A stretch of 64,000 bases of DNA from a virus: positions 35,322-99,321 of the IMG/VR virus record IMGVR_UViG_3300034980_000576, one strand, 5' to 3'. Below the pieces are notes generated by a model, which saw nothing but the letters and a program-made list of their open reading frames with translations, searched no databases and was not told the DNA's origin. The position numbers and the translations under genes are program-made. Below are positions 11,985-49,746 of this stretch, piece after piece (position 1 is the stretch's first letter; every line of letters starts with the position of its first letter).

Positions 11985-13528
11985 TGTCTATCAAAAGATA
12001 TAGAGCAGACATGGACAATACGATTGTTAATGCTTATCAATCGAACTTATCTACACGCGGCACTGGCTCAAATTCAGGACAAGCAGATGTGGTAGAAGTG
12101 TACTCTGTTTTCGGAAGACAGCAAGCTAGCAGTTCTGCTGCAACCGGCTCACAAGAACTATCCAGAATTCTAATGAGGTTTCCGATTAGTGACATTTCGG
12201 CAGATCGAACAGCGAACAGCATCCCAGCTAACGGCAAAGTCAGCTTCTATCTTCGACTGTTTGATGCAAAGACATCAAAGACGGTTCCTAAAAACTATAA
12301 GCTTGTAGTTCAAGCAGTTTCCAGATCTTGGGAAGAAGGCGACGGCTTAGATTTAGAAAACTATACTGATTTAACTAAAAATGGTTCTGGTTCAAATTGG
12401 ATCCGAGCTAGCAAAGCCTCGGCATGGTCGAGTGTTGGTGGAGATTATCACGCGTCTCCAACATATGTTCAGTATTTCACGGGCGGCTTGGGAAACTTAG
12501 ATGTTGATATCACGGCTCTTGTCGAGCAATGGATTGCCGGCTCGAAGAGTAATTATGGTGTTGGTGTACGCTTAACAGCCAGCAATGAAGCTTATTTTTC
12601 AAGTTCTGCCGGCGTAGATTCTGGAAGCGTTATTCAAAACCCCAATGGAGCCAAGACGTCTTACTACACAAAGCGCTTTTTCGCCAGAGGTTCGCAATAC
12701 TTCTTTAAACGCCCGGTGATTGAAGCAAGGTGGGATTCCACCACGCAGGACGATCGTGCAGCATTTTACTTTAGCAGTTCGCTAGCAACGAAGTCAGAAA
12801 ACTTAAACACACTTTATTTGTACAACTATGCCAGAGGAAAGCTCAGAAACATCCCGGCGGTAGGTACGGGGCATATCTACGTTAGTCTCTATTCGGGCTC
12901 TTCTGACAACACCGCACCAAGCGGTTCCAAGCTCGTTTTATATGATGCCGAAACCGCAATGACTGGAGGCCATCATGATACGGGAATTTACACGTGCTCT
13001 ATCGCTCTTACGAAATCAACTTCTGTTACTTTAGAAACCCTTTACGATGTGTGGCACGATAATTCGGGAACAGAGTTCTTCACCGGCTCAATTAAGCCTT
13101 ATACTCTCCGCGGCTCAACACACGCGAGAGAACCAACATACTACCTCTCGATAACAAATTTACAGAATTCATATATGAGAGATCAGAACGCTCGCTTTAA
13201 TTTATATGTTCGAGAGAAGAATTGGAGCCCCACCATCTACACCAAAGCGATCGCCAGCGCCCCAACGGAAACCATCTACAGTGCATCTTATAGAGTTATT
13301 AGGACAATAGATGGACTTGAGGCGGTTCCTTTCTACACGGGCTCAAGTAATAAACATGCTACAGGATTATCATATGATGTCTCGGGTAATTATTTTGATT
13401 TAGATATGAGCTTGTTAGAGCCGGGATATGAATATGCATTTAAATTTGCATTTTATGACGATGAGCTTGGTTCGTGGCAAGAGCAAAATGAACAATTTAA
13501 ATTCCGAGTAGACGATTATGAGCATTAA
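11984..13528 (+). CDS. DNRLRE-like baseplate/tail protein
   Basis: The protein has 514 residues and is coupled to gp6 by a TAATG overlap. The N-terminal half has features of DNRLRE/carbohydrate-binding-like beta domains: short beta strands, LMRFPISDI, VSFYLRLFDA and SWEEGDGLDLENYTD with a later W (about 55-160). A second beta-rich part at about 260-440 repeats the S/T/Y-rich pattern. No membrane segment or signal peptide is present. The place after gp6 is where T4 encodes gp7 and gp8, but I see no clear match to either. A peripheral baseplate or glycan-binding decoration protein is the best inference. Confidence 0.6.
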   Translation: MSIKRYRADMDNTIVNAYQSNLSTRGTGSNSGQADVVEVYSVFGRQQASSSAATGSQELSRILMRFPISDISADRTANSIPANGKVSFYLRLFDAKTSKTVPKNYKLVVQAVSRSWEEGDGLDLENYTDLTKNGSGSNWIRASKASAWSSVGGDYHASPTYVQYFTGGLGNLDVDITALVEQWIAGSKSNYGVGVRLTASNEAYFSSSAGVDSGSVIQNPNGAKTSYYTKRFFARGSQYFFKRPVIEARWDSTTQDDRAAFYFSSSLATKSENLNTLYLYNYARGKLRNIPAVGTGHIYVSLYSGSSDNTAPSGSKLVLYDAETAMTGGHHDTGIYTCSIALTKSTSVTLETLYDVWHDNSGTEFFTGSIKPYTLRGSTHAREPTYYLSITNLQNSYMRDQNARFNLYVREKNWSPTIYTKAIASAPTETIYSASYRVIRTIDGLEAVPFYTGSSNKHATGLSYDVSGNYFDLDMSLLEPGYEYAFKFAFYDDELGSWQEQNEQFKFRVDDYEH

Positions 13529-16500
13529 AAAACTATTTGAAGACGCAAATAAGACAGACACTTTCGTAGCAGACACCAGCCAGAAAGATGCATTCGAGCC
13601 TGTAGAATCGCAAAGGAATGTTGAACAGAAGTTACGCTCTCAAGCGCGCTATGTACCACAAGTAGACTACTCTGATCCTACAAATTTTGTTAAGTATGGA
13701 TCTGCGCGCTTATACTATGAGTCTGCATTCAATAGAATTCTAGATTATTATCCTTATGACGGCTCTCAGGCTGAAATAACAAAATTTCACAATAACAATC
13801 TAGACATCGAAGAATATATCTTAGACAAGAGATATCCCAAATCTACTGGATACATTACTCTCGCAAAAGATGGTTATTCAGTTAGCTCCATAGTTGATGG
13901 CTATGGCGTTCCAACTACTAATGAGTATATTGACTTAAAGGGCGGTCCAGGAACGGGCTCAGCGCCCTCCCTGCTACTGCAAAAGTTATTACCAAATCCC
14001 TACAACGACAGCTATAAATCATCTAATCTTTATAGTTCAAACATCTACACTGATGCCGGCCTTCCTTCAGATTATGGAAAAGGCTCTCGACAGTCAAACC
14101 TACGCGCCAACTTTGATGATGGTGTTACTGTAGAATTTTGGATGAAGACGGGTTCGATGGTTCCCGGCGCTATTACGGATCGTCAAGTAATTTTTGATTC
14201 GTGGAACAATAATGCCGTTTCATCAGCAGATTATGGAAGGCTCATGATAGAGCTTACAGGCACCGTAAACGACTTTGGTGGAGACAAAAATCCCTTTGTT
14301 ATAACTGTCCAATCCGGGGCAAACCCCCCACGATCGGTGGGATCAATGAAACTTCTTGGTGCTGACTCCCTACACGAGACGATGGGAGACTGGAATCACT
14401 ACGCCATTCGTTTATATAATACAGGCTCCTCGGGGAAAATACTCAAAACAGAACTGTATGTTAATGGTTTCCGATCGGATTCTTCATCTTGGGCGCCCTA
14501 TTCTTTAAAAACTAAGTTGGAAGTACAGCGAACCCTTGGATCAGCCCACTCATACCACATTGCCGACGGACAATATCGATATACATCCTCCGGAAGCCTT
14601 CAAGGCTGGTGGCGTTTTGATAAATCCACGATTACAACCACTTCTCCAGAGCCAGATGCCAGTGGAAACAACCATACTGGTTCGATATCTGCCACAGCAC
14701 ATGCGCCAGCCACCTCCACCTCCACCCCTAGTGCATATGTCCAAACTACAGGCTCCAACGTTTGGGGCGGAGATGCTACCGATGCAGTCAGAATAGGCAC
14801 CGCCGCCACATGGGATGCCATAATTGGAAACAACACTGGATCTGCAACTCCCAGGATGCCCCGCACAACCGAGATGATGACGTTCGCAGCATGGGTTTAT
14901 AAAACCGGCGATGGTGGTGGAAGCCCGGGCAAAGGCAGAATATTTGATTTTGGCAATCAGGATATAGCACTGTATTCGAATACCTCCGAAGCGTTGCTCT
15001 TTAATACAAAGTGGAATGGAAACAATATAGTCCAATGGACTTCAGCAACTGGTGTATTTTCTTTGAATACGTGGACTCATATAGCTATAACATATGACGC
15101 GAGAAGCGCAGAGAACAGACCGAAGCTATATATAAACGGCACCCTGACGGCGATGCCTTTAAGTACCGGAACTCAAACCGGCGCCTACTATGGTATCGCC
15201 GGCCAAGAGTGCGTTATAGGAAACAACGCCGCCGGCAATCGCAACTGGGCAGGAAATCTTGCAGATTTTGCAATCTGGAATTCTATATTAGACGCAGAGG
15301 AGATCCAGACTCTTTATTATGCCGGACAATACACGCAAGCGTTTGACGGCATAACAGAACTAAATTCTAAAAACATGATTGCTAGAATTGGCGCCCTTGT
15401 CACCTCTCCCGTTAGTTCTTCGGCGCCAGCAGGCGCCGGAAGATTAAGCGGCTCGTTGGATGAATTTAGATATTGGAAGGCAGCACGCACACCTAAACAA
15501 ATTGGAGAGTACTGGTTTGATCAGGTAAGGGGCGGCGCAAATTCTGACATAGCGAACGCAGATTTAGGAGTTTACTATAAATTTAATGAAGGAATCACAA
15601 CCAACACAGCAATCGACAGCATTGTGTTAGACTATGCCGGCAGAGCAGTTAACGGCGTATGGACAGGGTACAGTACAACCTCACGAAACACAGGCTCTGC
15701 GATCGTATCTGCTTCTGCCGCAGCCTTCGAGTTCGAAGATCCCATTATAAGAAGCACTCACCCATCGGTGGTAAGTCTTAAGAGCGAGTTAATAACATCG
15801 GGAACGTCATACGATTATAACAATAATGCATCGCTAATGTCCTTGATGCCCGGATGGATTCAGGACGAAGCAGCAGACTCCGACAATTCAGATCTATATT
15901 ATATCAACCACATTGCTGGCACCTATTTTGACAAAATACATCTACAGATTTCTCAACTGCCCGCTCTTCGACATATAAATTATGTAAGCTCTTCTCACAA
16001 GCCCTTACCTTTTTCTAAACACCTGCCGCAATCCTTGGGACTATATGCTCCAGAAATGTTTATCGAATCAGATGTGCTAGAAACATTTGCTGATCGAGAC
16101 TCTACTACCTTATTTGAGAATAAACTCGATGAGACAAAGAATTTAATTTATCAAAATCTTTATAATAACCTTGCTCATATCTTTAAGAGCAAGGGCACAG
16201 AACGAGCAATGCGAAGCGTTTTAAGATGCTTCAATGTTGACAACGGGTTGTATAACGTTAGTATTAATTCCAACAACGAAGAATATGTGCTAAGAAATAA
16301 CTTAAAGCACTCGCTGCTCAGAAAGAATTTTCTTAACTTTGCTAACCTGGAGAATACCACAGGTGTAGTATATCAACGTAAAACCGGCTCGAGCACCGCC
16401 GAGCAAGGATCAATTAGAGGACACAGTATTTATGTCCACCCAGATTGGATGCAGGCTAAGTACGGATTTACTTGTGAGTCTAATATCATATTTCCAGCTT

Positions 16501-19500
16501 ATGTTTCAGATTATACTACATTTGTACGAGATTCAAATTTCAACCGTGTGCACTTGTTTGGATTAGAACAAGTTGAAAACCGCAATGCAGCCAGCATAAC
16601 CGGCTCTGATACCACATATACACCAGGCAGAGAAGCCTCATTTAGAGTATATGCTGTACGGGAAAGTATAGGATCAAGGAATGTATATTTCCACTTGACA
16701 TCCTCTCGAACTGACGGATTGGGAATAAGTCTTACAAGCAGCGTCTTTTTAAATGTTTATGATAATGAGCCGTGGAATCTTTCTATAAGAGTTGAGCCTC
16801 AAAATTTACTCCAAGCAGGCGTTATCAACCGCGGCACATCGACACCTCTGTATAATGTTATATTTGCCGGCTTTAATCCAAAAACAGCTAATGAAATAGA
16901 CTCCTTCAAAGTAAGCGCCTCGGTGTCTGACACAGTAGGGCAGCAATTTATTACGGGATCTCGACGTCTTCTCGTAGGTGCCGATCGCACTAACATAACT
17001 GGGGATCTCAACTATCGAAGTGATGTACAGGTTGCCTCGCTAACATATTGGACAAAGGCACTTCACGACGATGATTTAAAAACGCACGCAGTTGATTTTG
17101 AAAATATAGGAATATCCGGATCTCTGCAGACGATATCCCCATTCGAGAGCGGTTCTGTCGATAGCATCAACAGGTATGCCCTAGCTCTTAATTGGAATTT
17201 TGAGAATGTCACCGGCTCCGGCGCCGGCGGCGATTTTATCGCACAAGACTATTCATCTGGATCTGCTGCCTTAATTAATGGTGACTTCGGTTGGAATGGT
17301 AAATTGGCAGGATATCGATATCCAGGATTTGCAATGCATTTCCCCACATCATCAACAGGTGTAACTACCAAGAAAGAGATTAATACATATAAATTTATCA
17401 ACCCAGAACAAGTCGTCGCGTCAGACTTGGTTCAGACGTTTTCGGATGAAGATATTCTCTACCCTAACTTAAGAAAAGAAGAAATTGTTCCCAATTATGT
17501 CTTTTCAATTGAAAAGAGCATCTACAATGCGGTCACAGAACAAATGTTGGACTTCTTTGCCGGCGCAATTGACTTCCATAGTTTAATCGGAGATCCTGTC
17601 CACACTTATAGAGGTCGCTACAAGGAACTGGAAAAACTGAGAGGAATATTTTTTGAGCGCGTCAAGAGCGTTTCTAATGTAGAAAAGTTCCTTTCGTATT
17701 ATAAATGGTTCGATGAATCTATCACCACGATACTGTCACAATTAGTCCCGGCATCTTCTGAGTTCGTTGACAACTTGTTGAATGTTGTTGAAAGTCATGT
17801 TTTGGAAAGAAACAAATATCAAAATCGAGTAAACATTATTGATTCTAATACTTTTTGGCTTGAAACTGATATGACGAGCGCCCCCACCACCGCAGGGATT
17901 ACAGTCGGTGGCGGCGCCGGCGCACTTGTTTCTCCGCCGGCATCTCCTCGCCCCACAAATAAAGGTGTACAGTACTGGCAAACCCGCGCCGAAAGAGATA
18001 TAGCCGAGATTTCATCCGGCGATGCAACCATCGATGCACAGAGAGACACTTTCCGTAATGTTATATGGTCGCGTCCACACGTATCCGGCGCGCTCCCTAG
18101 GTTGTTTACTGATGCCGGCACAGCATATCTTCCCGGATCCTTCGCGCGCAATAATAGTAGCATGCTGCCCAATATTAGAGCGCAGATTGACAATACTAAT
18201 AATCAAATATACAAATGGGAAAGGCCATCTATTACGCAAAATGAAATAAAAGGCGGCACAAACTTTAACAAGGGTAAGAGTTTAGAATATGCATATTCAG
18301 CCGTTTATCCCGGAGGCCCCGTAAACACAGATGATGGTGTTTTTGTTCCCCAAAATGTCCTGATAGGATTTGTAGGAGAGGCAATTGAGTTAACGAATTA
18401 CGAGAACATTTCTTGGCCAGAAGATTTGGTTCGAACCAGACAGAAGACATTCAAAGTTCAACACGGTCGCGAGTGGGAAGATGGAATAGGATATAAAAAT
18501 ACTAAATCAGAATTTGCATTTCCGTTTAACGTGCTAAGCAGCAGCGTTGAGGTACGCTCCGGTTATAATAAAGAAGTTGTTGATCAGGTGGGAAGAAACA
18601 TAGAGATAACAAACCTACACAACGACGCATATGGAGATCTGCTTGAGGTACCAATGCAGGGCCCATTTACAGAAGAATTAGTCGGCGGTCATCAGTCGCG
18701 ACATGTACCGCTTAATACTGGTACTGATACCCCCTACAATCGTCCTGAAGCATGGCGCCTACTGCTCGGTACGTGCAATATACTGCCATCGGGTGCGATC
18801 GGACTCGTCGGCCCTGACTATCCTCCCGTAGATTTTAATCCATCTCCCGGAACAAATCCCGATCTTGTTTACCCCTATCCCAACTACGAGAAAGCATATC
18901 TGTATCGCGACTTCGTGGCAAAAAGCCCCGTTAACATCAAAAATATTAAGGCAGTAAACTCAACTAATACAAATACCGTGATGGGCAATTATATACGAAA
19001 ATATGAAATTGTGTATTCCTTTGGTGCTTATAATAACCCTCGCGCATTTGTTGAAACTCAGCCAACGTTGCCATCGCAGCTATCACTAGTGAACTATACA
19101 ACAAATGTCCGGACAATTTTAGATATACATCGCGGAGAACAGGATCACTTTGAATTCGTCGGAGATTATAGCACTTCATATCTCACAGGGGCAACTAATA
19201 AGTCAATTATTACAACAAGATTCTCTGCCCCCGGCGGTATAGAAGCGGAAACAAGAGGTTACCAAGACTTTAAGGCAGCTGAATATTCTCCATACAATGT
19301 ACTCACGTACCGCAACCTGTCAGTCAAAAAGCCTTCACAGGGTCCATCTGGTACCCTTTCTGAGCCCCCCGGAGGCACCCCATCTACATCAAGAGTATAC
19401 GATATTCACGGGCTAGACTACGGGCTTAACTCCCACAGGGCACGTTATGCTGCTCGCTTTGGTAGGGATTCCTTACACGTAACATCTTCGGGTAATCTCC

Positions 19501-22500
19501 CCGGAGCATCGTATGATCAATTGCCGGCAATGTTCAAGACAAACCGCAACCCTAAAGAAAGCAACACTATAATATATTCCTTCACTCAGAGCAGCATACC
19601 CGACACGGGACTGATAAATGATAAAACAATAGATATCGATACCGGCGGAACTGGCATAATAGCTGTTATTCAAGACGCAACCAAGCGCACCGAAAGAGTT
19701 TTTGATGCCACATATGCACTGAGCAATGAAAATTCAGTAATGTTCACTTATGGCTGCTGGATAAAGCCCGACGCCGGCGGAATGAAACTTTTTGAGTTAG
19801 GATTCGCGGGCACCAGCGCGAAGCCAATTCACCAACTACAGAAGCAATCTGGCGGAGAATTAAGGTATACATTTGATACGACGGATGGTGCTGGAAACTT
19901 TACATCCGGATATTATCAGACAAGTGGCACACCTATAACTGGCTCACTGTGGAAGCAGGCTATGATAACAGTCAGCGGCGCCCACGGCGTGTTGCCCTCA
20001 ACTGGACCCACTGTTAAATTTTATGTAAACGGCGTAGAGTACGCCAGTACTTATTCCGGCGCCACCGGCCGGGCATATTTCCCAACTAGCTCACAAAATG
20101 TATCTAATTTTAGAGGATATGGAGCCGCGCTTACAAAGCCTGTAGCGTTTTTTGGTAGAATCGATTCCATAAGTGGATATGAGTACACCGGTCAAGCAGA
20201 TGAAATGTCGCTGCATAATACGGTGCTTTCAGCAGCAGACGTCGACGTTCTCTACAATAGCGGATATCCGCAAAATCTTACACAATCGGCAATAGCCGGC
20301 AGTTCTAGTCTCTTGTCTTGGTGGCGAATGGGCGACTCGCCCAGTGATGACATGTCTGGAGAAGGTTTAAACGCCATATCACCACTCAGTGCGTCAGGTG
20401 GAAATGTGATAATAGATGTAAAAAACAGTGCGAATATTCATTTTACTGCTCAGTCAGGAAATCTTTTGAAAGCAGAAACAGGCTCAGCGTCTTCGCTCCC
20501 GGGACAGCCGCCGTCTACCTATTCAGAAGAATACATCAGTGGTTATGGAAGCAAAAAAGAATATGACAACTACAATATTCAACATCAAATTCCGAGATCA
20601 GATAGACAATATATGTGGATATCTAATTCCGTTGTCGATGTATCAAACATCAGATATGCCGGCTATCAATATACGAATGCCGGCATCAACAATCCGGACA
20701 ATTTCCAACGGGAGCCATATAGAACTTCTTCGGCAGGCTTAACGCCATACTGGGATTTTGTCAGCAGTTCGAATGCGAGTACGGGAAGCTTCTATCAGCC
20801 CACAAATAGGTTGAATATCGTAATTAATGATCCTGTAGACTTTACTAACAATACGATAGGTACGACAACAATTGAAGATTATATGAATTATGATTTAATC
20901 GACAGTAGCTCCACCGCCGGCACACGATTGCCAAACTATCTCAACCAACTCCTTGCATCCCGCGGCAGCAATTATGGTTGGGGATGGAACAGAACGCGAC
21001 AAGCAGATAATAGAATCATCTTGAACCAGAAGGCAACCAACACGCTTAGGATGGTTACAGATAGGGCTCGTATGCTGTCGGCTAGTTATAGATTGCCCCC
21101 CCTTTCTATGAAAGGCAGAACAGCGTTGGTGAATTATGATCAGAAAAGTGCCCTTGGGAGAGATGTTAATATATCTTTGAGAATTTCCAATACTAACAAC
21201 AACATCTTTTTTCCAGAGCTTGATTTGAATAATTACGCAGCAATCAATTACAATGCAGTCTATAATCCCTTGCAAAAAGTGCTCTCTGTTGTTCGCAAAG
21301 GCTCTACAGGAACCCCGCTTAATTGGGTATTATATTCTCAAAATATCTTCCCATCTATTAGAAACGAATTTGTTAGCTCCTCATCTAAGAGGCTTAATTT
21401 TGATAATGGATACTGGCGCGCTAGCAATGCGGAAAGGATAACCCTCGGAAATACAGAAGAGAATTCTTTCGGCGTGAACCTCAGTCAAAGTAGTTGGGTG
21501 TTGGACGTGGCAGAAAACTTTTTGACGAGATCGGCGGTGGTGACTGCCTCAACTGGCGACAATCGCTTCTATAACCTCCGCCAAACTAAAGCAGGAGAAC
21601 TACAAAACACTTACTATAAATATTTCACAGTCCCCCCAAACTTCACCCGGATAAGTGCAGTCTACGCCAGAACGCACGAATTGGATACAATGGCTTCGGT
21701 TGTCTCCCCGCAAGGCCCAGTGGTGCCACAGACAGGTTCCGGAGGAAAGTCAGGCTCCGCCGGATCCGGACACTTTCAAAGAGGCTCAGCATCGTTTGAA
21801 ACAGCAGCGCTCTTAAATCAGCCATTTGGAGGCGAAGCGGTGTGGGAGGCAGGCTCCCAAGCCGGCACAGTCACGAAAACCGCAGCAGGGCTAACATTTA
21901 CGTCAGCACCTTCAGAACCTTGGTTCGGAACTTACGACTTATTCAATGAGAATATAAAGCTTAAAGCAAAGGGTTTTTCGGTTGTCCCGGAATATAGAAT
22001 GAGCGAACATGTTTCGAATTACTACAAGTATGGATACATGAATAAGACAGTTTCTGATATGTTTGAAATACCAGGAACCATTTTCGATAGTTCAACGGGA
22101 TCTTTCTATAAGGATTTCTCAAATACTGACTTCCTTGAGGGATTCTTAGGAGTAAAAGCACAAACGCTGCTAAGTGCATCAGAGATTAGAATCTCGTGCA
22201 CCGGCGCAATAAAATACAACCCGTACGAAGGATTTTACCCAGCGCAAAGAACACAGCAGCTTGTTGCTCAATTTAGTTCTTCTTTCATGAACTATTTCGG
22301 CGTTAAAGAATACGGCGCTGCGCCATGGTTTCCATCGAGTGTTGGATCCAGCTACTTTAACAGTAAAGTTGCGGGCATTATGAAAAATCTTACCGATTGC
22401 GTCTTTTCGCCCGGCATTCTATACAACTCTATTAAGTCTGGAATCGCTGTCGATTATCCAGTTATTCACGATGCATCTAAAAGAGCTACCGGCTCCTTTG

Positions 22501-24695
22501 GAGGGAGCGTCCTCACCACAAACAACTATGCTCTTGTGATTACTGGCTCTGTCGCCGCGGCTTCCGAACAAACAACGGGATACCATGGCGGAGAGATCTG
22601 GGATCGAAGAATACCCTTCGAAGCCATTGTTGATCCAAACAGACACCTCCCGGGACATCAATATTATTCGATGGAAAGTCACCCCTCCATGAGTCTAGGC
22701 GCCACTTTCAGCACGTACGAAAATGCGTACGCATTCCTGCAAGAAGGGGGAGACGATATATACTCACTCATGGCTTCAAACTTCTTTGGACAATCGACGG
22801 CTTTTTTCTTAAAGAATTCAGACTTAACAAAACTTAAATCAAAAACAGTTACGGATGATTTGAAATTTAGACCAAATGAAGTATATGTATCACGAATTAA
22901 GCTTCGGCGTTCCGTCAATGGAACGCGCACCTACGACTGGGAATATGACGCTTCCAGCCAACCAGCATCGGTTGGCGGCACTCCGGTATCCTCCATCGCC
23001 AACGCAAGCAGTGCGTGGGCAACATTCGGAGCAAAAGTCATCTCAAGCGGCTCGGGGTATTCCCTATACGATAGTGTTTTTCCAGTCCCGCAGGATCCAA
23101 AGAGGAATCCATATTTCCATGAAACCTTTACAATGTATTCTCGTCCAACTGCATTCGGCCCCTCCTGCGCTGGACGCCCATCGGGCTCCCGCGCCGTTAG
23201 TGGTGCCTTTGAGCACGCTTCCTTTGATAGCTTTGAGGGGTATAATTCCGCCTTTACTCCACCATATACCAATGGCGAAGCCTGGGTTGACTTAATTTTC
23301 CGCCCCTCTGCTAGTATTAGTTACGATCTTGAGAGGATCCTGGCAGAAACTAAGGCAGTTAGTTGGCGATTTGATGCAGGCTATAGAGTCCTTCCCCCCA
23401 CCGCTCTCACTGCTTCTGAACCAGCAATGCCGGCACTTATTCCGGTTGAAAAACAAGTCCACAATGGCGGCTCAACAATAACCCCAGGCAGCGATAAAAC
23501 AACCCCCTCGATCTATGATGGATATAGAATCAACGTCAACTCAATGCAAGCTACATCTAGTCTAGACATTTTTGGAGTTGAGCGTGTTTTGGAACAGAAG
23601 ACAGGGAAGTTCGATACCATCGGAGAGTCAACTAACAAATCTGTCGGCAAAAAATGGGTAATCTCTCCCAAGTGGGAGTCCCCCATGCTGAACTTTAACG
23701 ACAAGGGTGTTCATCCAATTAGCACCGCTGCCGGCACCTTAACGCTGCCAGTATACGCTTCAGCCTCTGTCTCTCGGGGCATGTGGCATCAATTCGGTGT
23801 AATACCAAACGATCAGAACACAGGTGTATTCATGGAGATCGACACTATTCCAGAAGAATGGATTAAGAATCATTATGATGTAACAATCAACCCAAGTGCT
23901 TACAACAACAATAATCCCGGTGATAATCATGATTCCAGAGGACTCTATAAACGCGTGAAGTCTTTAGCAACGTTGTGTGGATTTGATAAGACTAACTCTT
24001 CGAAGCGATTAGGTGAACTTAAAGAAAAGATGACGGTCAAAGAAGCTGTCGTTGCGGTACCATACGTGATCGATGCCTTGGATGAGTTCGAATTGGCACA
24101 GGTTCCCGCATCGTCTCCGCAAAAGAGACAGCGCAAAAGATTTGTAACAATTCCACAGGCACGCTTCGATGCCGCCCTGAAAGAATTAGAAGGTTCCGCA
24201 ACTGGCGATTCCATGGCAACTGCCGGCGCCTCAATTAGAAAATTAGCAAAAGCCGTAGAAACATATGTGTTTCCTCCACAATTCGATTTTCTTAATAATC
24301 CCGATATTTCACCAATGGCGATGTACGTGTTTGAATTCTCTTACGAGTTTGACAAGGATGCATTATCATATATTTGGCAAAACTTGGCGCCAATAGATTA
24401 CAAGAAGCTGGAATTCCAAGCAGCATCAATCGCTCACAATTTAGGAAATAATGAAATCTTAAATGAACAAATCTTGATGAATAAGAATTTACGATGGATG
24501 GTTTTCAAAGTCAAACAAAGAGCCACCCAAAATTATTACGAACTTCTCCCCGATCAAGCAGGTGCCTCGACTGATCAGATTGATTTTAAAACTGGCAAAC
24601 TTGGAGAATATAATTTTGGATTCAACTGGCCATATGATTACTTATCTTTTGTAGAGCTAATTAAGATGGACGTTGATATATTACTTAAAAAGTAA
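13518..24695 (+). CDS. Giant LamG-containing baseplate/tail protein, 3725 residues
   Basis: An 11.2-kb frame whose start overlaps the previous gene by 11 bp. Concanavalin/LamG-type modules can be picked out by their strand patterns: DGVTVEFWMKTG (about 197-320), LQGWWRFD through MMTFAAWVYKTGD to LYINGTL (about 360-605), and NSVMFTYGCWIKPD through VKFYVNG to SLLSWWRMGD (about 2070-2275). A stretch at about 885-905 (IFKSKGTERAMRSVLRCF) resembles the K-G-T-x-x-A-I/M-R motif of gpI/gp7-like wedge proteins (inference). The C-terminal 500 residues are more helical and charged. Following gp25 and gp6, it probably combines a gp7-like wedge core with surface-exposed sugar-binding modules. It is far longer than T4 gp7 (1032 residues). 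Confidence 0.75.
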   Translation: MSIKKLFEDANKTDTFVADTSQKDAFEPVESQRNVEQKLRSQARYVPQVDYSDPTNFVKYGSARLYYESAFNRILDYYPYDGSQAEITKFHNNNLDIEEYILDKRYPKSTGYITLAKDGYSVSSIVDGYGVPTTNEYIDLKGGPGTGSAPSLLLQKLLPNPYNDSYKSSNLYSSNIYTDAGLPSDYGKGSRQSNLRANFDDGVTVEFWMKTGSMVPGAITDRQVIFDSWNNNAVSSADYGRLMIELTGTVNDFGGDKNPFVITVQSGANPPRSVGSMKLLGADSLHETMGDWNHYAIRLYNTGSSGKILKTELYVNGFRSDSSSWAPYSLKTKLEVQRTLGSAHSYHIADGQYRYTSSGSLQGWWRFDKSTITTTSPEPDASGNNHTGSISATAHAPATSTSTPSAYVQTTGSNVWGGDATDAVRIGTAATWDAIIGNNTGSATPRMPRTTEMMTFAAWVYKTGDGGGSPGKGRIFDFGNQDIALYSNTSEALLFNTKWNGNNIVQWTSATGVFSLNTWTHIAITYDARSAENRPKLYINGTLTAMPLSTGTQTGAYYGIAGQECVIGNNAAGNRNWAGNLADFAIWNSILDAEEIQTLYYAGQYTQAFDGITELNSKNMIARIGALVTSPVSSSAPAGAGRLSGSLDEFRYWKAARTPKQIGEYWFDQVRGGANSDIANADLGVYYKFNEGITTNTAIDSIVLDYAGRAVNGVWTGYSTTSRNTGSAIVSASAAAFEFEDPIIRSTHPSVVSLKSELITSGTSYDYNNNASLMSLMPGWIQDEAADSDNSDLYYINHIAGTYFDKIHLQISQLPALRHINYVSSSHKPLPFSKHLPQSLGLYAPEMFIESDVLETFADRDSTTLFENKLDETKNLIYQNLYNNLAHIFKSKGTERAMRSVLRCFNVDNGLYNVSINSNNEEYVLRNNLKHSLLRKNFLNFANLENTTGVVYQRKTGSSTAEQGSIRGHSIYVHPDWMQAKYGFTCESNIIFPAYVSDYTTFVRDSNFNRVHLFGLEQVENRNAASITGSDTTYTPGREASFRVYAVRESIGSRNVYFHLTSSRTDGLGISLTSSVFLNVYDNEPWNLSIRVEPQNLLQAGVINRGTSTPLYNVIFAGFNPKTANEIDSFKVSASVSDTVGQQFITGSRRLLVGADRTNITGDLNYRSDVQVASLTYWTKALHDDDLKTHAVDFENIGISGSLQTISPFESGSVDSINRYALALNWNFENVTGSGAGGDFIAQDYSSGSAALINGDFGWNGKLAGYRYPGFAMHFPTSSTGVTTKKEINTYKFINPEQVVASDLVQTFSDEDILYPNLRKEEIVPNYVFSIEKSIYNAVTEQMLDFFAGAIDFHSLIGDPVHTYRGRYKELEKLRGIFFERVKSVSNVEKFLSYYKWFDESITTILSQLVPASSEFVDNLLNVVESHVLERNKYQNRVNIIDSNTFWLETDMTSAPTTAGITVGGGAGALVSPPASPRPTNKGVQYWQTRAERDIAEISSGDATIDAQRDTFRNVIWSRPHVSGALPRLFTDAGTAYLPGSFARNNSSMLPNIRAQIDNTNNQIYKWERPSITQNEIKGGTNFNKGKSLEYAYSAVYPGGPVNTDDGVFVPQNVLIGFVGEAIELTNYENISWPEDLVRTRQKTFKVQHGREWEDGIGYKNTKSEFAFPFNVLSSSVEVRSGYNKEVVDQVGRNIEITNLHNDAYGDLLEVPMQGPFTEELVGGHQSRHVPLNTGTDTPYNRPEAWRLLLGTCNILPSGAIGLVGPDYPPVDFNPSPGTNPDLVYPYPNYEKAYLYRDFVAKSPVNIKNIKAVNSTNTNTVMGNYIRKYEIVYSFGAYNNPRAFVETQPTLPSQLSLVNYTTNVRTILDIHRGEQDHFEFVGDYSTSYLTGATNKSIITTRFSAPGGIEAETRGYQDFKAAEYSPYNVLTYRNLSVKKPSQGPSGTLSEPPGGTPSTSRVYDIHGLDYGLNSHRARYAARFGRDSLHVTSSGNLPGASYDQLPAMFKTNRNPKESNTIIYSFTQSSIPDTGLINDKTIDIDTGGTGIIAVIQDATKRTERVFDATYALSNENSVMFTYGCWIKPDAGGMKLFELGFAGTSAKPIHQLQKQSGGELRYTFDTTDGAGNFTSGYYQTSGTPITGSLWKQAMITVSGAHGVLPSTGPTVKFYVNGVEYASTYSGATGRAYFPTSSQNVSNFRGYGAALTKPVAFFGRIDSISGYEYTGQADEMSLHNTVLSAADVDVLYNSGYPQNLTQSAIAGSSSLLSWWRMGDSPSDDMSGEGLNAISPLSASGGNVIIDVKNSANIHFTAQSGNLLKAETGSASSLPGQPPSTYSEEYISGYGSKKEYDNYNIQHQIPRSDRQYMWISNSVVDVSNIRYAGYQYTNAGINNPDNFQREPYRTSSAGLTPYWDFVSSSNASTGSFYQPTNRLNIVINDPVDFTNNTIGTTTIEDYMNYDLIDSSSTAGTRLPNYLNQLLASRGSNYGWGWNRTRQADNRIILNQKATNTLRMVTDRARMLSASYRLPPLSMKGRTALVNYDQKSALGRDVNISLRISNTNNNIFFPELDLNNYAAINYNAVYNPLQKVLSVVRKGSTGTPLNWVLYSQNIFPSIRNEFVSSSSKRLNFDNGYWRASNAERITLGNTEENSFGVNLSQSSWVLDVAENFLTRSAVVTASTGDNRFYNLRQTKAGELQNTYYKYFTVPPNFTRISAVYARTHELDTMASVVSPQGPVVPQTGSGGKSGSAGSGHFQRGSASFETAALLNQPFGGEAVWEAGSQAGTVTKTAAGLTFTSAPSEPWFGTYDLFNENIKLKAKGFSVVPEYRMSEHVSNYYKYGYMNKTVSDMFEIPGTIFDSSTGSFYKDFSNTDFLEGFLGVKAQTLLSASEIRISCTGAIKYNPYEGFYPAQRTQQLVAQFSSSFMNYFGVKEYGAAPWFPSSVGSSYFNSKVAGIMKNLTDCVFSPGILYNSIKSGIAVDYPVIHDASKRATGSFGGSVLTTNNYALVITGSVAAASEQTTGYHGGEIWDRRIPFEAIVDPNRHLPGHQYYSMESHPSMSLGATFSTYENAYAFLQEGGDDIYSLMASNFFGQSTAFFLKNSDLTKLKSKTVTDDLKFRPNEVYVSRIKLRRSVNGTRTYDWEYDASSQPASVGGTPVSSIANASSAWATFGAKVISSGSGYSLYDSVFPVPQDPKRNPYFHETFTMYSRPTAFGPSCAGRPSGSRAVSGAFEHASFDSFEGYNSAFTPPYTNGEAWVDLIFRPSASISYDLERILAETKAVSWRFDAGYRVLPPTALTASEPAMPALIPVEKQVHNGGSTITPGSDKTTPSIYDGYRINVNSMQATSSLDIFGVERVLEQKTGKFDTIGESTNKSVGKKWVISPKWESPMLNFNDKGVHPISTAAGTLTLPVYASASVSRGMWHQFGVIPNDQNTGVFMEIDTIPEEWIKNHYDVTINPSAYNNNNPGDNHDSRGLYKRVKSLATLCGFDKTNSSKRLGELKEKMTVKEAVVAVPYVIDALDEFELAQVPASSPQKRQRKRFVTIPQARFDAALKELEGSATGDSMATAGASIRKLAKAVETYVFPPQFDFLNNPDISPMAMYVFEFSYEFDKDALSYIWQNLAPIDYKKLEFQAASIAHNLGNNEILNEQILMNKNLRWMVFKVKQRATQNYYELLPDQAGASTDQIDFKTGKLGEYNFGFNWPYDYLSFVELIKMDVDILLKK

Positions 24696-39683: not shown

Positions 39684-40238
39684 ATGATTTTAGGTGTCGA
39701 CGTATCAACTAGTATAACGGGATTTGCTGTTGTGGCAGACAATCAATTGGTTTATTATGACTCAATTGATATGAGGAAACACAAAAATGTTTTTGATAAA
39801 ACAATAGCAATCAAAGAAAAGATTTTAGATTTGTTTGAAATGTATCAATGTAATAATGACGATTCAATGCGCCTAGGCAATTCGGATTATCCTATCGAAC
39901 ATATCTATATCGAACAGCCATTCACGTTCTTTAACTCAGGTGGCTCTTCTGCAAAGACGATGGCAACGCTACAAAAGTTTAATGGTATTGTGTCGTGGTT
40001 ATTATTTGAAACTTTTGAAATCCGCCCAGAATATGTAGGGGCTACTACTGCAAGGAAGCATGCCGGCATTAAGGTACCCCGCGGCCAAAAGGCAAAGCAG
40101 GTAGTATTGCAGCATCTTTTAGATACTGAGCCGGCATTTAAAATAGAATATACAAAACATGGAAACCCAAAGCCGGAGTCATATGATCGCGCCGACGCAA
40201 TAGTCGTAGCGAAGGCTGGGTGGAAAATTGAAAATTAA
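39684..40238 (+). CDS. RuvC-like Holliday-junction resolvase
   Basis: The protein has 184 residues. The RNase-H-like fold of RuvC is marked by GVDVSTSITGFAV with Asp6, HIYIEQP with Glu77, and SYDRADAIVVA with Asp168 and Asp171, giving the four acidic metal ligands. Length is close to E. coli RuvC (173). It would cut four-way or branched DNA, as gp49 (endonuclease VII) does in T4, to clear recombination intermediates before packaging. No gp49-type gene is seen in this window. It stands at the border between the structural run and the nucleic-acid module and lacks a visible Shine-Dalgarno sequence. Confidence 0.88.
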   Translation: MILGVDVSTSITGFAVVADNQLVYYDSIDMRKHKNVFDKTIAIKEKILDLFEMYQCNNDDSMRLGNSDYPIEHIYIEQPFTFFNSGGSSAKTMATLQKFNGIVSWLLFETFEIRPEYVGATTARKHAGIKVPRGQKAKQVVLQHLLDTEPAFKIEYTKHGNPKPESYDRADAIVVAKAGWKIEN

Positions 40239-40808: not shown

Positions 40809-41747
40809 ATGAACAAGAAGGAAGCGAAGAAGGTATTATATGAAACTCTTGGCACGTATTACGACAAAGGTGAAGAATTACTTTTTTCGTGTCCGGTATG
40901 CGATCACCACAAACGTAAGTTCTCTATTAATTTGGATAAGAATGCTTATAAGTGTTGGGTTTGTGATTATCGGGGTCGCAATATTAGGCGTGTTATTAGG
41001 CGTTTTGGTACCTATACACAACTTAGCAACTGGAACCAACTATCAGACGAAACATGTCTTCAGAGAATTGGTGAGATCTTTATGGATCTCGGCGTACGCG
41101 AGAGCAAGGTTGCGGTACAACTCCCAGCAGAATTCTTAAGCCTTACGACATCCCCGCTCCCCGCAACAGGTGTGAGAGCATTTAAATACTTGCAATCGCG
41201 AGGAGTTACAGAAGCCGATATTCTTAAATGGAAGATCGGTTTTTGTTTTAGTGGAGAATACCGCAATAGAATCATTATCCCCTCATTCGCCGAGAATGGC
41301 GATTGTAGCTACTTTATCGCGAGATCCTATACTGGAGACTCCTATAAGTACAAAAACCCGCCAGCATCCAAGGATGTGGTGTTTAATGAACTATTTATAG
41401 ACTGGAACAGAGACTTAACTATAGTCGAAGGAGTGTTTGATGCTTTGGTTGTCGGGAATGCCGTACCGATACTTGGTTCGACTTTACGTAAGGGATCAGA
41501 TCTCTTACGCCAAATTGTACAAAACGACACCCCAGTCTTCATCGCCCTCGATCCCGACGCCGCCAACAAAGAAAGGCGGATTATTAAAATGTTGCTGGAA
41601 TACGATATCGAACTTTATAAAATCGATGTTACCGGATACGAAGACGTAGGCTCGATGCCCAAAGAGATATTTAGAGAGCGTAAGAATAACGCAGCCTTTA
41701 TCGATAGAGACAACTATTTACTGTTGAATTTGTTATCAGCAGTATAG
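40809..41747 (+). CDS. DNA primase, gp61-like (zinc finger plus Toprim)
   Basis: The protein has 312 residues. An N-terminal CHC2-like zinc ribbon has CPVC (Cys28, Cys31) and CWVC (Cys49, Cys52). The Toprim catalytic core follows with TIVEGVFDAL (Glu207, Asp211) and ALDPDA (Asp248, Asp250). RIIIPSF at 154-160 is the usual strand before Toprim. Length fits T4 gp61 (342). It makes RNA primers for lagging-strand synthesis and normally works with a DnaB-like helicase (gp41), which is not in the window. It has its own promoter, and transcription can run on into the signature-bearing gene 8 bp downstream. Confidence 0.92.
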   Translation: MNKKEAKKVLYETLGTYYDKGEELLFSCPVCDHHKRKFSINLDKNAYKCWVCDYRGRNIRRVIRRFGTYTQLSNWNQLSDETCLQRIGEIFMDLGVRESKVAVQLPAEFLSLTTSPLPATGVRAFKYLQSRGVTEADILKWKIGFCFSGEYRNRIIIPSFAENGDCSYFIARSYTGDSYKYKNPPASKDVVFNELFIDWNRDLTIVEGVFDALVVGNAVPILGSTLRKGSDLLRQIVQNDTPVFIALDPDAANKERRIIKMLLEYDIELYKIDVTGYEDVGSMPKEIFRERKNNAAFIDRDNYLLLNLLSAV

Positions 41748-44047: not shown

Positions 44048-44143
44048 ATGCTAGATTTTGCTGCGGATACGTTTGTGAAAGCGTTCATTATTTACACAGG
44101 TTGGTATGGGTTCAATGCCCTCTTTTGGATGATGTTAAACTAG
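44048..44143 (+). CDS. Small hydrophobic leader protein, 31 residues
   Basis: ATG at 44048 follows AAAGGGG with suitable spacing and lies about 13 bases after the predicted transcription start. The 31-residue product is hydrophobic and aromatic in its C-terminal half (FIIYTGWYGFNALFWMMLN) and could be a single-span membrane peptide. It ends 8 bases before the GTG start of the nuclease, and the nuclease ribosome-binding site (AGGAG) overlaps its stop. It may therefore regulate nuclease translation as a leader cistron, or be a small membrane effector. It is the first cistron of the transcript. Confidence 0.55.
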   Translation: MLDFAADTFVKAFIIYTGWYGFNALFWMMLN

Positions 44144-44151
44144 GAGAGCAT

Positions 44152-47100
44152 GTGAGCATTAAGATTGCGCACGTATCGGATATCCATGTCCGAAAATTAA
44201 AGTACCATAAGGAATACCGCGTAGTATTCCAGCGACTATATGATAAGTTACGCGAACTAAAACCGGATATTATCGTCAATACTGGCGATACGTTCCACAC
44301 TAAATTAGACTTATCCCCGGAGGCTATTCGTATGATGAGCGAGCTATTTGCTGGCTTAGCAGACATTGCTCCGTATTATATGATTCTGGGGAACCATGAT
44401 ATGAATTTGAAGAATGGCGCCCGACTGGATGCCATCACACCGATTGTCGAGAATCTAAAGCACAAGAACGTTCACTTCATTAAGAATAGTGAAGTTATTG
44501 AAGTTGCTGACGGCATTGATCTTCATGTGCTTTCTATTGTCGATCCTGAAAACTGGCAAGAGACACCACCAGACGATCGCGTCAACATCGCATTATATCA
44601 TGGTGCAGTCGTTGGTTCAAAGACGGACACCGGCTGGGTGATGACTCACGGCGATATCGACATAGATACGCTAGCTAAGTATGATTACGGATTATTAGGC
44701 GATATTCATAAGACACACCAGAAGATCGACAATGATGGCAAGTGCGCTTATCCGGGCTCTCTTATTCAACAGAATCACGGGGAAACACCAGACAAGGGTT
44801 TTTTGCTATGGGAGATCGAAGACAAGGACACTTTTGCTTGTAAGCATTTTCAGCTTGAGAACCCAAAACCGTTTATCACCATTCAGCTAACCCCAAAGGG
44901 CAAAATGCCCCGCCGAGCAGATCCTCCAAAGGGCGCCCGTTTGCGCTTAGTGAGCAACAACAATTTACCACTGAATACAATGAAACGAGCAATAGATATT
45001 GCAAAACACCGGTTCAGTCCAGAAGTTGTAACATTCTTGAACAGGGCAGCCGGCGAACGCGGTAACGTAGCAGATATAACAGACTCTTTGAAGACAGAAA
45101 ACCTGAGAGACATCGAGGTTCAAGAAGAGTTGATAGATGAATATCTCAAGGACTATCAAGCTGACGAAGGCACTTTAGAAATGGTTTATCAGCTGAATCG
45201 CAAGTACAAGAAGCAAGTGGAGGATAGCGAAGAGGTGTCCCGCAATGTCAATTGGAAATTAGTAAACTTTGAATTTGATAATCTTTTTAATTACGGCGAA
45301 GGCAACAAGGTTTCGTTTGATAAGCTTAATGGAATTATCGGTGTTTTTGGAAAGAATTATTCTGGAAAGAGTAGCGTTGTCGACAGCGTTCTGTGGACGC
45401 TCTTTAACACAACTTCCAAAAATGAAAGAAAGAATGTCAATGTTATTAATCAAAATAAAGAATCTAGCAGAGGGAAACTAACGATTGAAGTGGGACATAA
45501 GACATACACAATTGAAAGAACAGCAGAGAAATATATCAAGAAACTGAAAGGAGAAGCAACAGAAGAGGCGAAGACGGATTTGAACTTTGAGGTATTTGAC
45601 AAAACCACCGGCGACACCCACTCTCTGAATGGGCTCAGTCGGCCCCAGACAGATGCAAACATTCGCAAGCACTTCGGTACCATCGATGACTTTTTGGTGT
45701 CCTCACTGGCATCCCAACACGGCGCCTTGGCGTTTATTGATGAAGGCTCAACAAGACGAAAAGAGATCATTGCCAAGTTCCTCGATCTGGAAGTGTTCGA
45801 ACAAAAGTTTAAACTAGCGAAAGAAGATAGCACCGATCTGAAAGGGGCACTAAAACGTTTAGAGTCCCGAGAATATGAAGAAGAAATAGAGGAAGCAAAA
45901 GAAGAATTGGACTCGTGCCGAAGTAACCTAGCAGAGCATGAGGCAGTGTGCGAAGAATTGAATAGCGAGATAGAACGACTAACTGACGAGTGCGTGAAAC
46001 TAAACAATATGATCGAATCAATACCGGCAGAGATCATTGACATTGCTGCGACAAGGAAAGAAATTCTTCAAAAGAATGCGAGAGTTAAATCATTAACAAA
46101 CGAGAACAAGAAGAGTGAGATAAACCTCGGAATCAAGAACAAACTCTATGGGAAAATTGAAACGTTTTTAGGCGAAATCGACATCGAGGAACTCACAAAA
46201 ACTCAGAATGAAATTAACACACTAACCGACAACAAACAAATAAAAGAGCAAGAGCTAGCTTCTCTGATTACACAGATAGTAGACATAGAAAAGAAGTCAC
46301 ATCTTCTTGATGATATTCCTTGTGGAACTCAGTTCTCAAGTTGTAAGTTTATTAACGATGCCAACATCGCTGTTGCCAACCTACCACATGTAGAGAATGA
46401 TAGAAGCGATGTTGCTAACAACATTGAAGGATTACAGGATAATATTGATGTCTTAAATCCCATCGATGTTTCAAGACAGATAGATCAACATATACAAATG
46501 GTTGACAAAAGAAACGATATTGCAAACCACATTGCAGCACTTAACCTATCAATAGAAAGAAACATATCCTCTATTGAACGACTTGGCTACGAACTCAAAG
46601 AACTCGAAAGCAAGAAGCAAGAATATGACGAAAACAAAGAAGCCATTGAAAATCTTGAAGAATTAAATGCAGAGTTAATTGCATGCGAAAGAAACCTTAT
46701 CTCCTCAAAACAACGCTGCGATGAGTGTGCTGAGCAGACATTAGAACTATATAAAAATGTAGGCTCGATCGAACAAAAAGTCGAGACAATCGAAAATCAA
46801 AAACAAGAATACCTAGACTTACAGGAGGAATATTCAGCTTATGATCTTTACATGCGTTGTATGCATACATCTGGGATTGCTTATGATATTATTAAGCGCA
46901 AACTCCCGGTTATCAATCAAGAAGTCGCGAAAGTCCTTGCTAACATTGTCGAGTTTGAAGTCTTCTTCGAAGATAGTGGAAAGAAATTTGACATATTTAT
47001 CAAGCACCCAAGACATGAACCCCGCCCAATTGAAATGGCATCAGGAGCAGAGAAATCTTTGGCTGCCATAGCCATTCGTTTGGCTTTGTTGGGAGTATCT

Positions 47101-47310
47101 TCGTTGCCTAAATCTGATCTTTTTGCCCTAGATGAGCCGGGTACCGCTCTAGACGAATCAAATATGGAGGGTTTTATTAGGATTTTGGAACTAATTAAGG
47201 TGTATTTTAAAAACGTTTTGTTGATCTCGCACCTTGATTCGCTCAAAGACTGTGTTGATATGCAAATCGAGATAGATAAGAAAGATGGATACGCGAGAGT
47301 AAATCAATAG
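44152..47310 (+). CDS. Fused Mre11-Rad50 type recombination nuclease (gp47-gp46)
   Basis: The protein has 1052 residues from GTG 44152, chosen because AGGAG lies at 44142-44146. The N-terminal half is a calcineurin-like Mre11/SbcD/gp47 nuclease: SDIH (Asp10, His12), NTGDTFH (Asp46, His49), GNHD (Asn81-Asp83), YHGAVVG, GDIH and YPGSLIQ. The C-terminal half is a Rad50/SbcC/gp46 SMC ATPase: Walker A GKNYSGKSS (400-408), two long coiled coils, a hook-like CGTQFSSC (Cys724, Cys731), signature SGAEKS (from 964), Walker B FALDEP (Asp994, Glu995) and an LLISH loop. In T4 these are two separate genes. The complex resects DNA ends for recombination-dependent replication. Confidence 0.93.
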   Translation: MSIKIAHVSDIHVRKLKYHKEYRVVFQRLYDKLRELKPDIIVNTGDTFHTKLDLSPEAIRMMSELFAGLADIAPYYMILGNHDMNLKNGARLDAITPIVENLKHKNVHFIKNSEVIEVADGIDLHVLSIVDPENWQETPPDDRVNIALYHGAVVGSKTDTGWVMTHGDIDIDTLAKYDYGLLGDIHKTHQKIDNDGKCAYPGSLIQQNHGETPDKGFLLWEIEDKDTFACKHFQLENPKPFITIQLTPKGKMPRRADPPKGARLRLVSNNNLPLNTMKRAIDIAKHRFSPEVVTFLNRAAGERGNVADITDSLKTENLRDIEVQEELIDEYLKDYQADEGTLEMVYQLNRKYKKQVEDSEEVSRNVNWKLVNFEFDNLFNYGEGNKVSFDKLNGIIGVFGKNYSGKSSVVDSVLWTLFNTTSKNERKNVNVINQNKESSRGKLTIEVGHKTYTIERTAEKYIKKLKGEATEEAKTDLNFEVFDKTTGDTHSLNGLSRPQTDANIRKHFGTIDDFLVSSLASQHGALAFIDEGSTRRKEIIAKFLDLEVFEQKFKLAKEDSTDLKGALKRLESREYEEEIEEAKEELDSCRSNLAEHEAVCEELNSEIERLTDECVKLNNMIESIPAEIIDIAATRKEILQKNARVKSLTNENKKSEINLGIKNKLYGKIETFLGEIDIEELTKTQNEINTLTDNKQIKEQELASLITQIVDIEKKSHLLDDIPCGTQFSSCKFINDANIAVANLPHVENDRSDVANNIEGLQDNIDVLNPIDVSRQIDQHIQMVDKRNDIANHIAALNLSIERNISSIERLGYELKELESKKQEYDENKEAIENLEELNAELIACERNLISSKQRCDECAEQTLELYKNVGSIEQKVETIENQKQEYLDLQEEYSAYDLYMRCMHTSGIAYDIIKRKLPVINQEVAKVLANIVEFEVFFEDSGKKFDIFIKHPRHEPRPIEMASGAEKSLAAIAIRLALLGVSSLPKSDLFALDEPGTALDESNMEGFIRILELIKVYFKNVLLISHLDSLKDCVDMQIEIDKKDGYARVNQ

Positions 47311-48603: not shown

Positions 48604-49746
48604 ATGTCAGACGAAAAAGAAGATAAAAACGAATTTGATTTTCTGCCTCCCGCAGAACCACCTCCCGCGTTCGCGCAGGAAAAAGACAGCTACCACGAAT
48701 CAGTAGACGCTGAAGACTTCGGTATGGTAGAGGACTTCGGATTACAGATGGAATACTCTGATGAAGATTTACTCCCCGAGAACACCGCGCCTTCTTCGAT
48801 TAACGTTGGCTTTGTCGGGGTTGGCGGCGGAGGCAACAAAATGGCGAATGCGTTCATTGAACTTGGATTCAATAAGACGCTACTCGTAAATTCAACAGGT
48901 AAAGACATTCCAAAGAATGTAGAAGAGGATCACGTTGTCCTTATTCCCGACTCAGACGGGATTGGAAAAAACGTAGAATATGGAAAAGAGGTTTTAAGTC
49001 AAAATGGTGCGATTGTTGAAGATGCCCTGCGTATCAAACTCGGTAAAGTTGATTGGTTATTCGTCCTTGCTGGCGGCGGTGGCGGTACCGGTAGTAGTGT
49101 TACCGCTCTGCACCCTGTCTTTGAGCGTTACATGCGCTCTGTGCAGTCGAGTGGCAAGGTCGTTTATATAGTCTCATGGCCCACAGCACAAGAAAACCTT
49201 AACCCAACAATCGCTCGTAATGCGTTGACGCTGGCAAATGATGTTGCACAGCATCCGCATATCGTTCTTGATAACGAACGAGCCACTCGATTACTCCGCG
49301 GCCGAATCGGCATGCTCGGCATGTATCCAGTCGCCAACACAACTTTTGCTAAGTCACTTGCCCAAGTGTTAAAACTCTCCACCGAGGATTCACCGATCCA
49401 ATCTTTCGACAGCAAGGACTTGGAAACATGTCTGGGCAATGACGGTCGTGCCTTTTTAGGCTCAACTATGATAAAGGATCCAAATACTGCTAAGCTTGGA
49501 TCGGTGATTCTCCACAACTGCATGAATCGTTCTGCATGTCCTCCACCGAAAGGTAAGGCTGCTGCAGGATCGTTAGTGCTGGTTGTGTCAGAAGAGATGG
49601 TGGCTGACCCTAAAGTCAGTAAAAACATTGAGTCTGCGATTGCTTATGTCGGCGGTCGATGCGAGACACTTTTCTCTGGCGTTTACGTCCGAAAGAATGT
49701 GCCCGGATTGATTGCGATACTAAGCATGAATGGATTAGCAACATGA
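48604..49746 (+). CDS. Tubulin/FtsZ-like GTPase
   Basis: The protein has 380 residues and an AAGGAATAAACA leader. After an acidic, Pro-rich tail of about 65 residues comes NVGFVGVGGGGNKMANAF (nucleotide loop 71-79), then AGGGGGTGSS (156-165), the tubulin/FtsZ signature. FDSKDLETCLGNDGRAFLGS corresponds to the T7 loop NVDFADVRTVMSEMGYAMMG of E. coli FtsZ, with both catalytic Asp residues kept (Asp269, Asp272). GTP binding and polymerisation-triggered hydrolysis are therefore likely. Known phage tubulins (PhuZ) centre the replicating phage in the cell, and TubZ moves plasmids. The fold family is firm, the role is not. Its last codons (MNGLAT) recur as the junction repeat downstream, and the next gene overlaps its stop (ATGA). 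Confidence 0.9.
   Translation: MSDEKEDKNEFDFLPPAEPPPAFAQEKDSYHESVDAEDFGMVEDFGLQMEYSDEDLLPENTAPSSINVGFVGVGGGGNKMANAFIELGFNKTLLVNSTGKDIPKNVEEDHVVLIPDSDGIGKNVEYGKEVLSQNGAIVEDALRIKLGKVDWLFVLAGGGGGTGSSVTALHPVFERYMRSVQSSGKVVYIVSWPTAQENLNPTIARNALTLANDVAQHPHIVLDNERATRLLRGRIGMLGMYPVANTTFAKSLAQVLKLSTEDSPIQSFDSKDLETCLGNDGRAFLGSTMIKDPNTAKLGSVILHNCMNRSACPPPKGKAAAGSLVLVVSEEMVADPKVSKNIESAIAYVGGRCETLFSGVYVRKNVPGLIAILSMNGLAT
49726..49746 (+). repeat. MNGLAT junction repeat, copy A
   Basis: The sequence ATGAATGGATTAGCAACATG plus A forms the last codons and stop of the tubulin-like gene. Its final ATGA is also the start of the next gene. It is the apparent parent copy of the junctions that follow. Confidence 0.9.

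Follow-up and report, generated by a model that had tools for sequence, protein, structure and literature searches.

The question raised by this locus was whether an Mre11-like nuclease and a Rad50-like ATPase are truly joined in one protein, and what kind of enzyme results, given the unusual tip of its coiled coil. The gene lies in the 64,000-nucleotide stretch analysed here (the window), which covers positions 35,322 to 99,321 of the 99,321-base virus record IMGVR_UViG_3300034980_000576. It occupies 44152-47310 on the plus strand (as do its parts and the two conserved upstream neighbours given below) and is open for 1052 residues, nuclease before ATPase, up to the stop codon at 47308-47310. 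The mechanically called ORF could also begin upstream at TTG44101; we preferred GTG44152, because the aligned homologues begin at MSIKIAHVSDIHVR and because a Shine-Dalgarno-like AGGAG (44142-44146) is located 5 nt upstream of the GTG. Pfam indicated Metallophos at residues 3-154 (E 3.5e-13) and SMC_N (E 1.1e-12), PHROG indicated the SbcC-like family phrog_77 at residues 304-1051 (E 8e-54), and the best relatives of solved structure by sequence alone were archaeal Rad50, SbcD and Mre11. In its own record, the whole protein was covered by one match. Together with 69 full-length fused homologues that share the open frame, the frame and the domains established as genuine the uninterrupted 1052-residue, gp47-gp46-like fusion described in the initial annotation.

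An IMG/VR scan with the fusion protein as query yielded 47 loci, overlapping contigs included, 45 of which carried the same gene (in some cases ended by a contig edge), while the other two had separate T4-type genes. For the alignment we used the window protein and the 69 full-length homologues, none of which reaches 90% identity to another; a hook-pattern scan had supplied further loci for this set. These homologues, all on separate virus contigs, were 1027-1080 aa long and 29-86% identical to the window protein, and the fusion was uninterrupted in each of them; the other fused versions that the initial annotation had proposed to look for were thus found, in deposited phages as well. In the structural model, the nuclease half ends in a helix-loop-helix (residues 307-359, helices 321-335 and 339-359; 45070-45228), predicted to bind the base of the Rad50 coil by analogy with the T. 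maritima helix-loop-helix cited in PMC3175470. It is followed by a linker of about seven residues (360-366; 45229-45249) that connects the final Mre11-type helix to the first strand of Rad50. By prediction, this is the arrangement expected of a fusion of the type of Mimivirus R555. A conserved start with a Shine-Dalgarno site was not found at residues 335-384 (at most 3 of the 70 sequences at any column), so a separate, internally started Rad50 is not supported and was set aside. An assembly or sequencing artefact joining two adjacent genes could be suspected, since gp47/gp46 and D12/D13 are separate genes in other phages and overlap in one case; this has a negligible chance of being true, as the junction is open in 69 homologues from many samples and in deposited phage genomes, and carries no conserved start with a Shine-Dalgarno site. 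What had been named earlier as able to overturn the fusion, a stop and a start masked by a sequencing error, is excluded by the same open junction in dozens of independent contigs.

The fusion itself is of an already known kind, as indicated by its description in 2011 and by deposited phages with colinear long proteins; what differs here is the hook with six residues between its cysteines (Cx6C) and, in some relatives, a split of the nuclease. Yoshida, Claverie and Ogata reported Mre11/Rad50 fusions in Mimivirus (R555) and in marine metagenomic scaffolds judged to be viral, and further ones in Bacillus phage 0305phi8-36, some bacteria, plasmids and eukaryotes, and regarded this type of fusion as compatible with the known Mre11-Rad50 complex (PMC3175470). 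That paper contains none of the words hook, CXXC, zinc and cysteine, and splits are not mentioned either. The earlier statement that the two halves are separate in T4 and in SbcCD therefore holds, whereas the presentation of the fusion as unusual does not, as fusions have been described since 2011 and are present in cultured phages. The R555 type shares with the window protein the Mre11-then-Rad50 order in one chain, the GDxxH motif and an Asp for His206, and the marine R555-like fusions resemble the window gene in their setting, namely abundance in aquatic viral samples and neighbouring primases and endonucleases (PMC3175470). R555 differs in being 1351 aa long and belonging to a giant virus, and the likeness is taken from the published description.

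Among deposited phages, Microcystis phage Mel-JY01 encodes a full-length colinear fusion (WWT39521.1, 1066 aa, 31% identity), and there too a primase gene lies upstream; the fusion differs in its hook, YDPKCKHC (CxxC), the form found in Mel-JY01-like phages, and its annotation reads just 'AAA domain containing protein'. Long proteins annotated as metallo-phosphoesterase or DNA repair exonuclease in Tenacibaculum phages pT24, PTm1 and PTm5, Sphingomonas phage PAU (gp288) and Chryseobacterium phages MA9V-1/2 were colinear with the fusion of the 735-kb phage LR756501. These are much more distant, giving no direct match from the window protein at 1e-5; pT24 and PTm1 were also matched by fold. T4-type gp47/gp46, T5-type D12/D13 and bacterial SbcCD have the same enzyme halves with the nuclease gene first, but as two separate proteins, and the separate phage Rad50 proteins we examined had CxxC hooks. 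A genome collection contained ten loci, of which nine belong to metagenome-assembled genomes and may therefore lie on binned phage contigs; plasmids gave short nuclease matches only. We also noticed two pieces of a fused gene (L177 and L181, residues 4-629 and 547-1051) widely separated in a single WOR-3 metagenome-assembled chromosome (CP070664.1).

The nuclease half comprises a calcineurin-like core (residues 1-235; 44152-44856), supported by Pfam, by invariant residues and by Mre11 fold matches, and a capping-domain-like segment (residues 236-306; 44857-45069), whose approximate boundaries come from the secondary structure of the model and from the Mre11 analogy. D10, H12, D46, H49, N81, H82, H150, D184 and H186 were invariant in all 70 aligned fusions. 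They correspond to the Mre11 metal-binding motifs DxH, GD, GNHD, H and GHxH, except that D184 takes the place of the first His in GHxH. The claim that all key motifs are present thus stands for the catalytic residues but needs qualification at two metal-site positions, both invariant in the 70 sequences: GDxxH (H49) replaces GDxxD, and Asp184 replaces His206 (Pfu numbering). Mimivirus R555 carries both substitutions (PMC3175470), and the T5-type D12 of Vibrio phage PG07 has the same His-to-Asp change, reading GDLH. Given H49 and D184, the use of metal by the nuclease may differ from that of canonical Mre11. The two substitutions could also be taken to mean that the nuclease is dead and the protein mainly structural or a host-takeover ATPase; we regard this as very improbable, since nine residues at or near the metal site are invariant in 70 proteins and the Asp in place of that His recurs in PG07 D12 and in R555.

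The Rad50 half begins with the N-lobe (residues 367-545; 45250-45786; assigned from invariant residues, the model and Foldseek), which contains Walker A (GKNYSGKSS, 400-408) and Q522. The ascending coiled coil (546-720; 45787-46311), fast-evolving from about residue 571, and the descending one (735-905; 46354-46866) were delimited by alignment and model, and the C-lobe (906-1052; 46867-47307) by invariant residues and Foldseek; the C-lobe holds the signature SGAEK (964-968), the Walker B residues D994 and E995, D1001 and H1027. G405, K406, Q522, S964, E967, D994, E995 and D1001 were invariant in 70/70 fusions and H1027 was kept in 69. The bipartite ABC head is therefore complete (Walker A, Q-loop, signature, Walker B, D-loop and H-loop) and matched Rad50 heads in Foldseek. 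The single-chain AF2 model (mean pLDDT 84.7, pTM only 0.52) placed in order the nuclease fold, the helix-loop-helix, the linker, the ABC head and a long antiparallel coil tipped by the loop 721-734, which is predicted to be flanked by long helices, as the antiparallel coil of Rad50/SbcC requires. Foldseek retrieved Mre11 and Rad50 structures of C. thermophilum, E. coli SbcCD, M. jannaschii and T. maritima. The top ten matches among predicted viral structures were 969-1417 aa long, those with names coming from giant viruses and Tenacibaculum phages, in agreement with fusions in both groups. In the fusion and its homologues, the coil (residues 571-870) evolves much faster than the heads, even where the heads are 97% identical.

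The hook loop (residues 721-734; 46312-46353), defined from homologues and the model, reads IPCGTQFSSCKFI. In place of the canonical zinc-hook CxxC at the coil tip, C724 (46321-46323) and C731 (46342-46344) are separated by six residues. The initial annotation was right that the hook is not Cys-x2-Cys, and right about the spacing, but it under-rated the feature, because Cx6C prevails in a large phage lineage, where it alternates with CxxC. The majority of the lineage has Cx6C (CGxxFPxCKFI), and a group nested in the window's clade has CxxC (YDPxCxYC). In the aligned set, to which the hook-scan loci add a bias toward Cx6C, 62 of 70 sequences were Cx6C and 8 were CxxC; among 45 sequences picked by whole-protein similarity, near-copies included, 30 were Cx6C and 15 CxxC (YDPxCxYC or FC). 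Both hook cysteines were kept in all 45 of the latter, whose selection ignored the hook. A scan for the DNA pattern of the Cx6C hook, which itself demands both cysteines and to which cysteine loss is thus invisible, gave at least 120 stretches, each within a frame of the fusion family. Among the Cx6C matches listed, the uncut ones were full fusions or the split form, and none was a free-standing Rad50. A hook-only tblastn search of 50,697 records of deposited phages, with a weak query of 37 aa, showed no Cx6C hook, and we found no description of it in open-access papers. Oceanic SMC variants without CXXC were placed by their authors with SMC and not with Rad50/SbcC (PMC12153180); they are set apart from the Cx6C fusions by this published placement.

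The hook state has changed repeatedly. On the head-domain tree, well-supported branches forced at least four changes of state, and a single CxxC clade was rejected (p-AU 9e-68); a coil tree calculated without the hook columns required three changes (p-AU 1.6e-5). Both p values are descriptive, as the group had been picked out on these very data. The sister or near-sister pairs L014/L015, L002/L008 and L004/L034 differ in hook type, with heads 93-97% and coils 47-64% identical, while the coils of the same-hook pairs tried were 66-80% identical. In L004/L034 the identity minimum fell at 691-780, around the hook. Replacement of the whole coil as the sole cause of switching was rejected, since L014/L015 and L004/L034 kept their sister relationship when the hook columns were left out of the coil tree. 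Nearest neighbours shifted only slightly within 15 residues of the hook.

The CxxC loop at the same place in close relatives and the constant presence of two cysteines suggest, as the simplest reading of the sequences, that a pair of Cx6C loops would still supply four cysteines to one metal site, the loops having another geometry. The constant pair of cysteines is no more than suggestive of a metal-mediated hook dimer. We tentatively propose, as possible rather than probable, that Cx6C (CGxxFPxC) is a second kind of metal hook, interchangeable with CxxC, repeatedly switched and possibly controlling which chains pair. Alternatively, the Cx6C loop may be no metal hook and instead form an intra- or interchain disulphide, or a contact that needs no metal, with tips that pair unlike those of Rad50; the spacing indeed departs from a CxxC described as absolutely conserved in Rad50 (PMC13402864). 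That close relatives have CxxC as the alternative loop, and that both types hold exactly two cysteines, makes this rather unlikely. The cytoplasm is a reducing environment, in which disulphides are less likely. It is also conceivable, although we consider it improbable, that the hook types serve as exclusion labels against mixed dimers among related co-infecting phages, which would favour repeated switching. The number of state changes among close relatives and the far faster evolution of the coil and hook region than of the heads fit such labels; however, coiled coils diverge fast even without selection for diversity, and synonymous sites were near saturation among the homologues compared in our recombination and selection tests. 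The Cx6C lineage is natural and widespread, and sisters differing mainly in coil and hook are ready-made pairs for probing hook requirements.

In a side branch (L064, L077, L113, L136, L171, L204, L207-L210, L216 and others) the fusion is divided inside the active site of the nuclease. The first gene, of about 215-225 aa, stops shortly past GDIH with a conserved tail; the second begins near KIRTKKPWIAYPGS and carries the remaining nuclease and Rad50, and stop and start overlap in several loci. The idea that fusion fixes a 1:1 stoichiometry is correct for the single chain, but these relatives with a two-gene cut indicate that the lineage does not depend on it. The split genes gave no match to a known intron or other Rfam RNA at the gathering threshold. 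In the 484-kb phage LR756508 (L051:5665-6579), a 305-aa ORF lies between the split pieces. Its cysteine-rich part matched the phage HNH-endonuclease family phrog_1271 (E 3.5e-15) and its C-terminus a TnsA-like endonuclease domain (Pfam, E 5.8e-6), and on these matches it is plausibly a homing endonuclease. Cases in which such enzymes have divided a phage gene whose products still work are known, namely Aeh1 nrdA and phage 25 gene 43 (PMC2988022), and by analogy the nuclease split may have arisen in this way. We found no description of this nuclease split in open-access papers; the side branch provides a natural split enzyme.

Neighbouring genes were counted wherever a fetched locus had more than 4.5 kb of upstream DNA, which gave 60 loci, overlapping contigs being left unmerged. 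A RuvC-like resolvase (39684-40238; phrog_159) was conserved upstream in 45 of them and a DnaG-type primase (40809-41747; phrog_47, E 1e-46) in 57. The recurring order is RuvC, primase, fusion, with the primase directly upstream of the fusion in more distant clades, and it supports a role of the fusion in replication and recombination. Terminase, portal, head maturation protease and baseplate wedge genes nearby point to a tailed phage, probably with a contractile tail. The products tested of the 99-kb record, which may be incomplete, included no RecA-like recombinase.

Taken as a whole, the protein is very probably an R555-type single-chain Mre11-Rad50 of a tailed marine phage, pairing at heads and hook and acting in end processing and tethering. 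Two chains would probably pair at three places: nuclease to nuclease, ATPase to ATPase upon ATP binding, and hook to hook at the coil tip, where loops with two cysteines each may build a putative four-cysteine metal site. The helix-loop-helix that elsewhere ties Mre11 to Rad50 would here lead through the short linker directly into Rad50. Most likely, the enzyme would process and tether double-strand DNA ends, feeding recombination-dependent replication and repair with the resolvase and primase encoded upstream as candidate partners. The fixed ratio of nuclease to ATPase makes a single-chain enzyme convenient for structural work.

Downstream of the fusion, the window encodes a tubulin/FtsZ-family GTPase (48604-49746; Pfam PF00091, E 2e-8; no PHROG match). 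Such a gene follows the fusion in 30 loci of the window's clade, mostly 88-99% identical, and its conservation exceeds that of the primase. In the structural gene region, 2620-9753 and 13518-24695 hold very long ORFs, of 2377 and 3725 aa. Outside the window, the same genome carries a sugar-gene cluster (L218:229-12915) with two NeuB genes, glycosyltransferases, short-chain dehydrogenases and a polysaccharide pyruvyl transferase. Finally, otherwise different proteins share a start peptide resembling MKITKxQLKQIIKEEL (window 42400, 43062, 47322, 50055, 50621 and 51147), and a second repeated start resembles MKQLFENWRK (window 50365 and 51426); these recurring start peptides could be a targeting signal.
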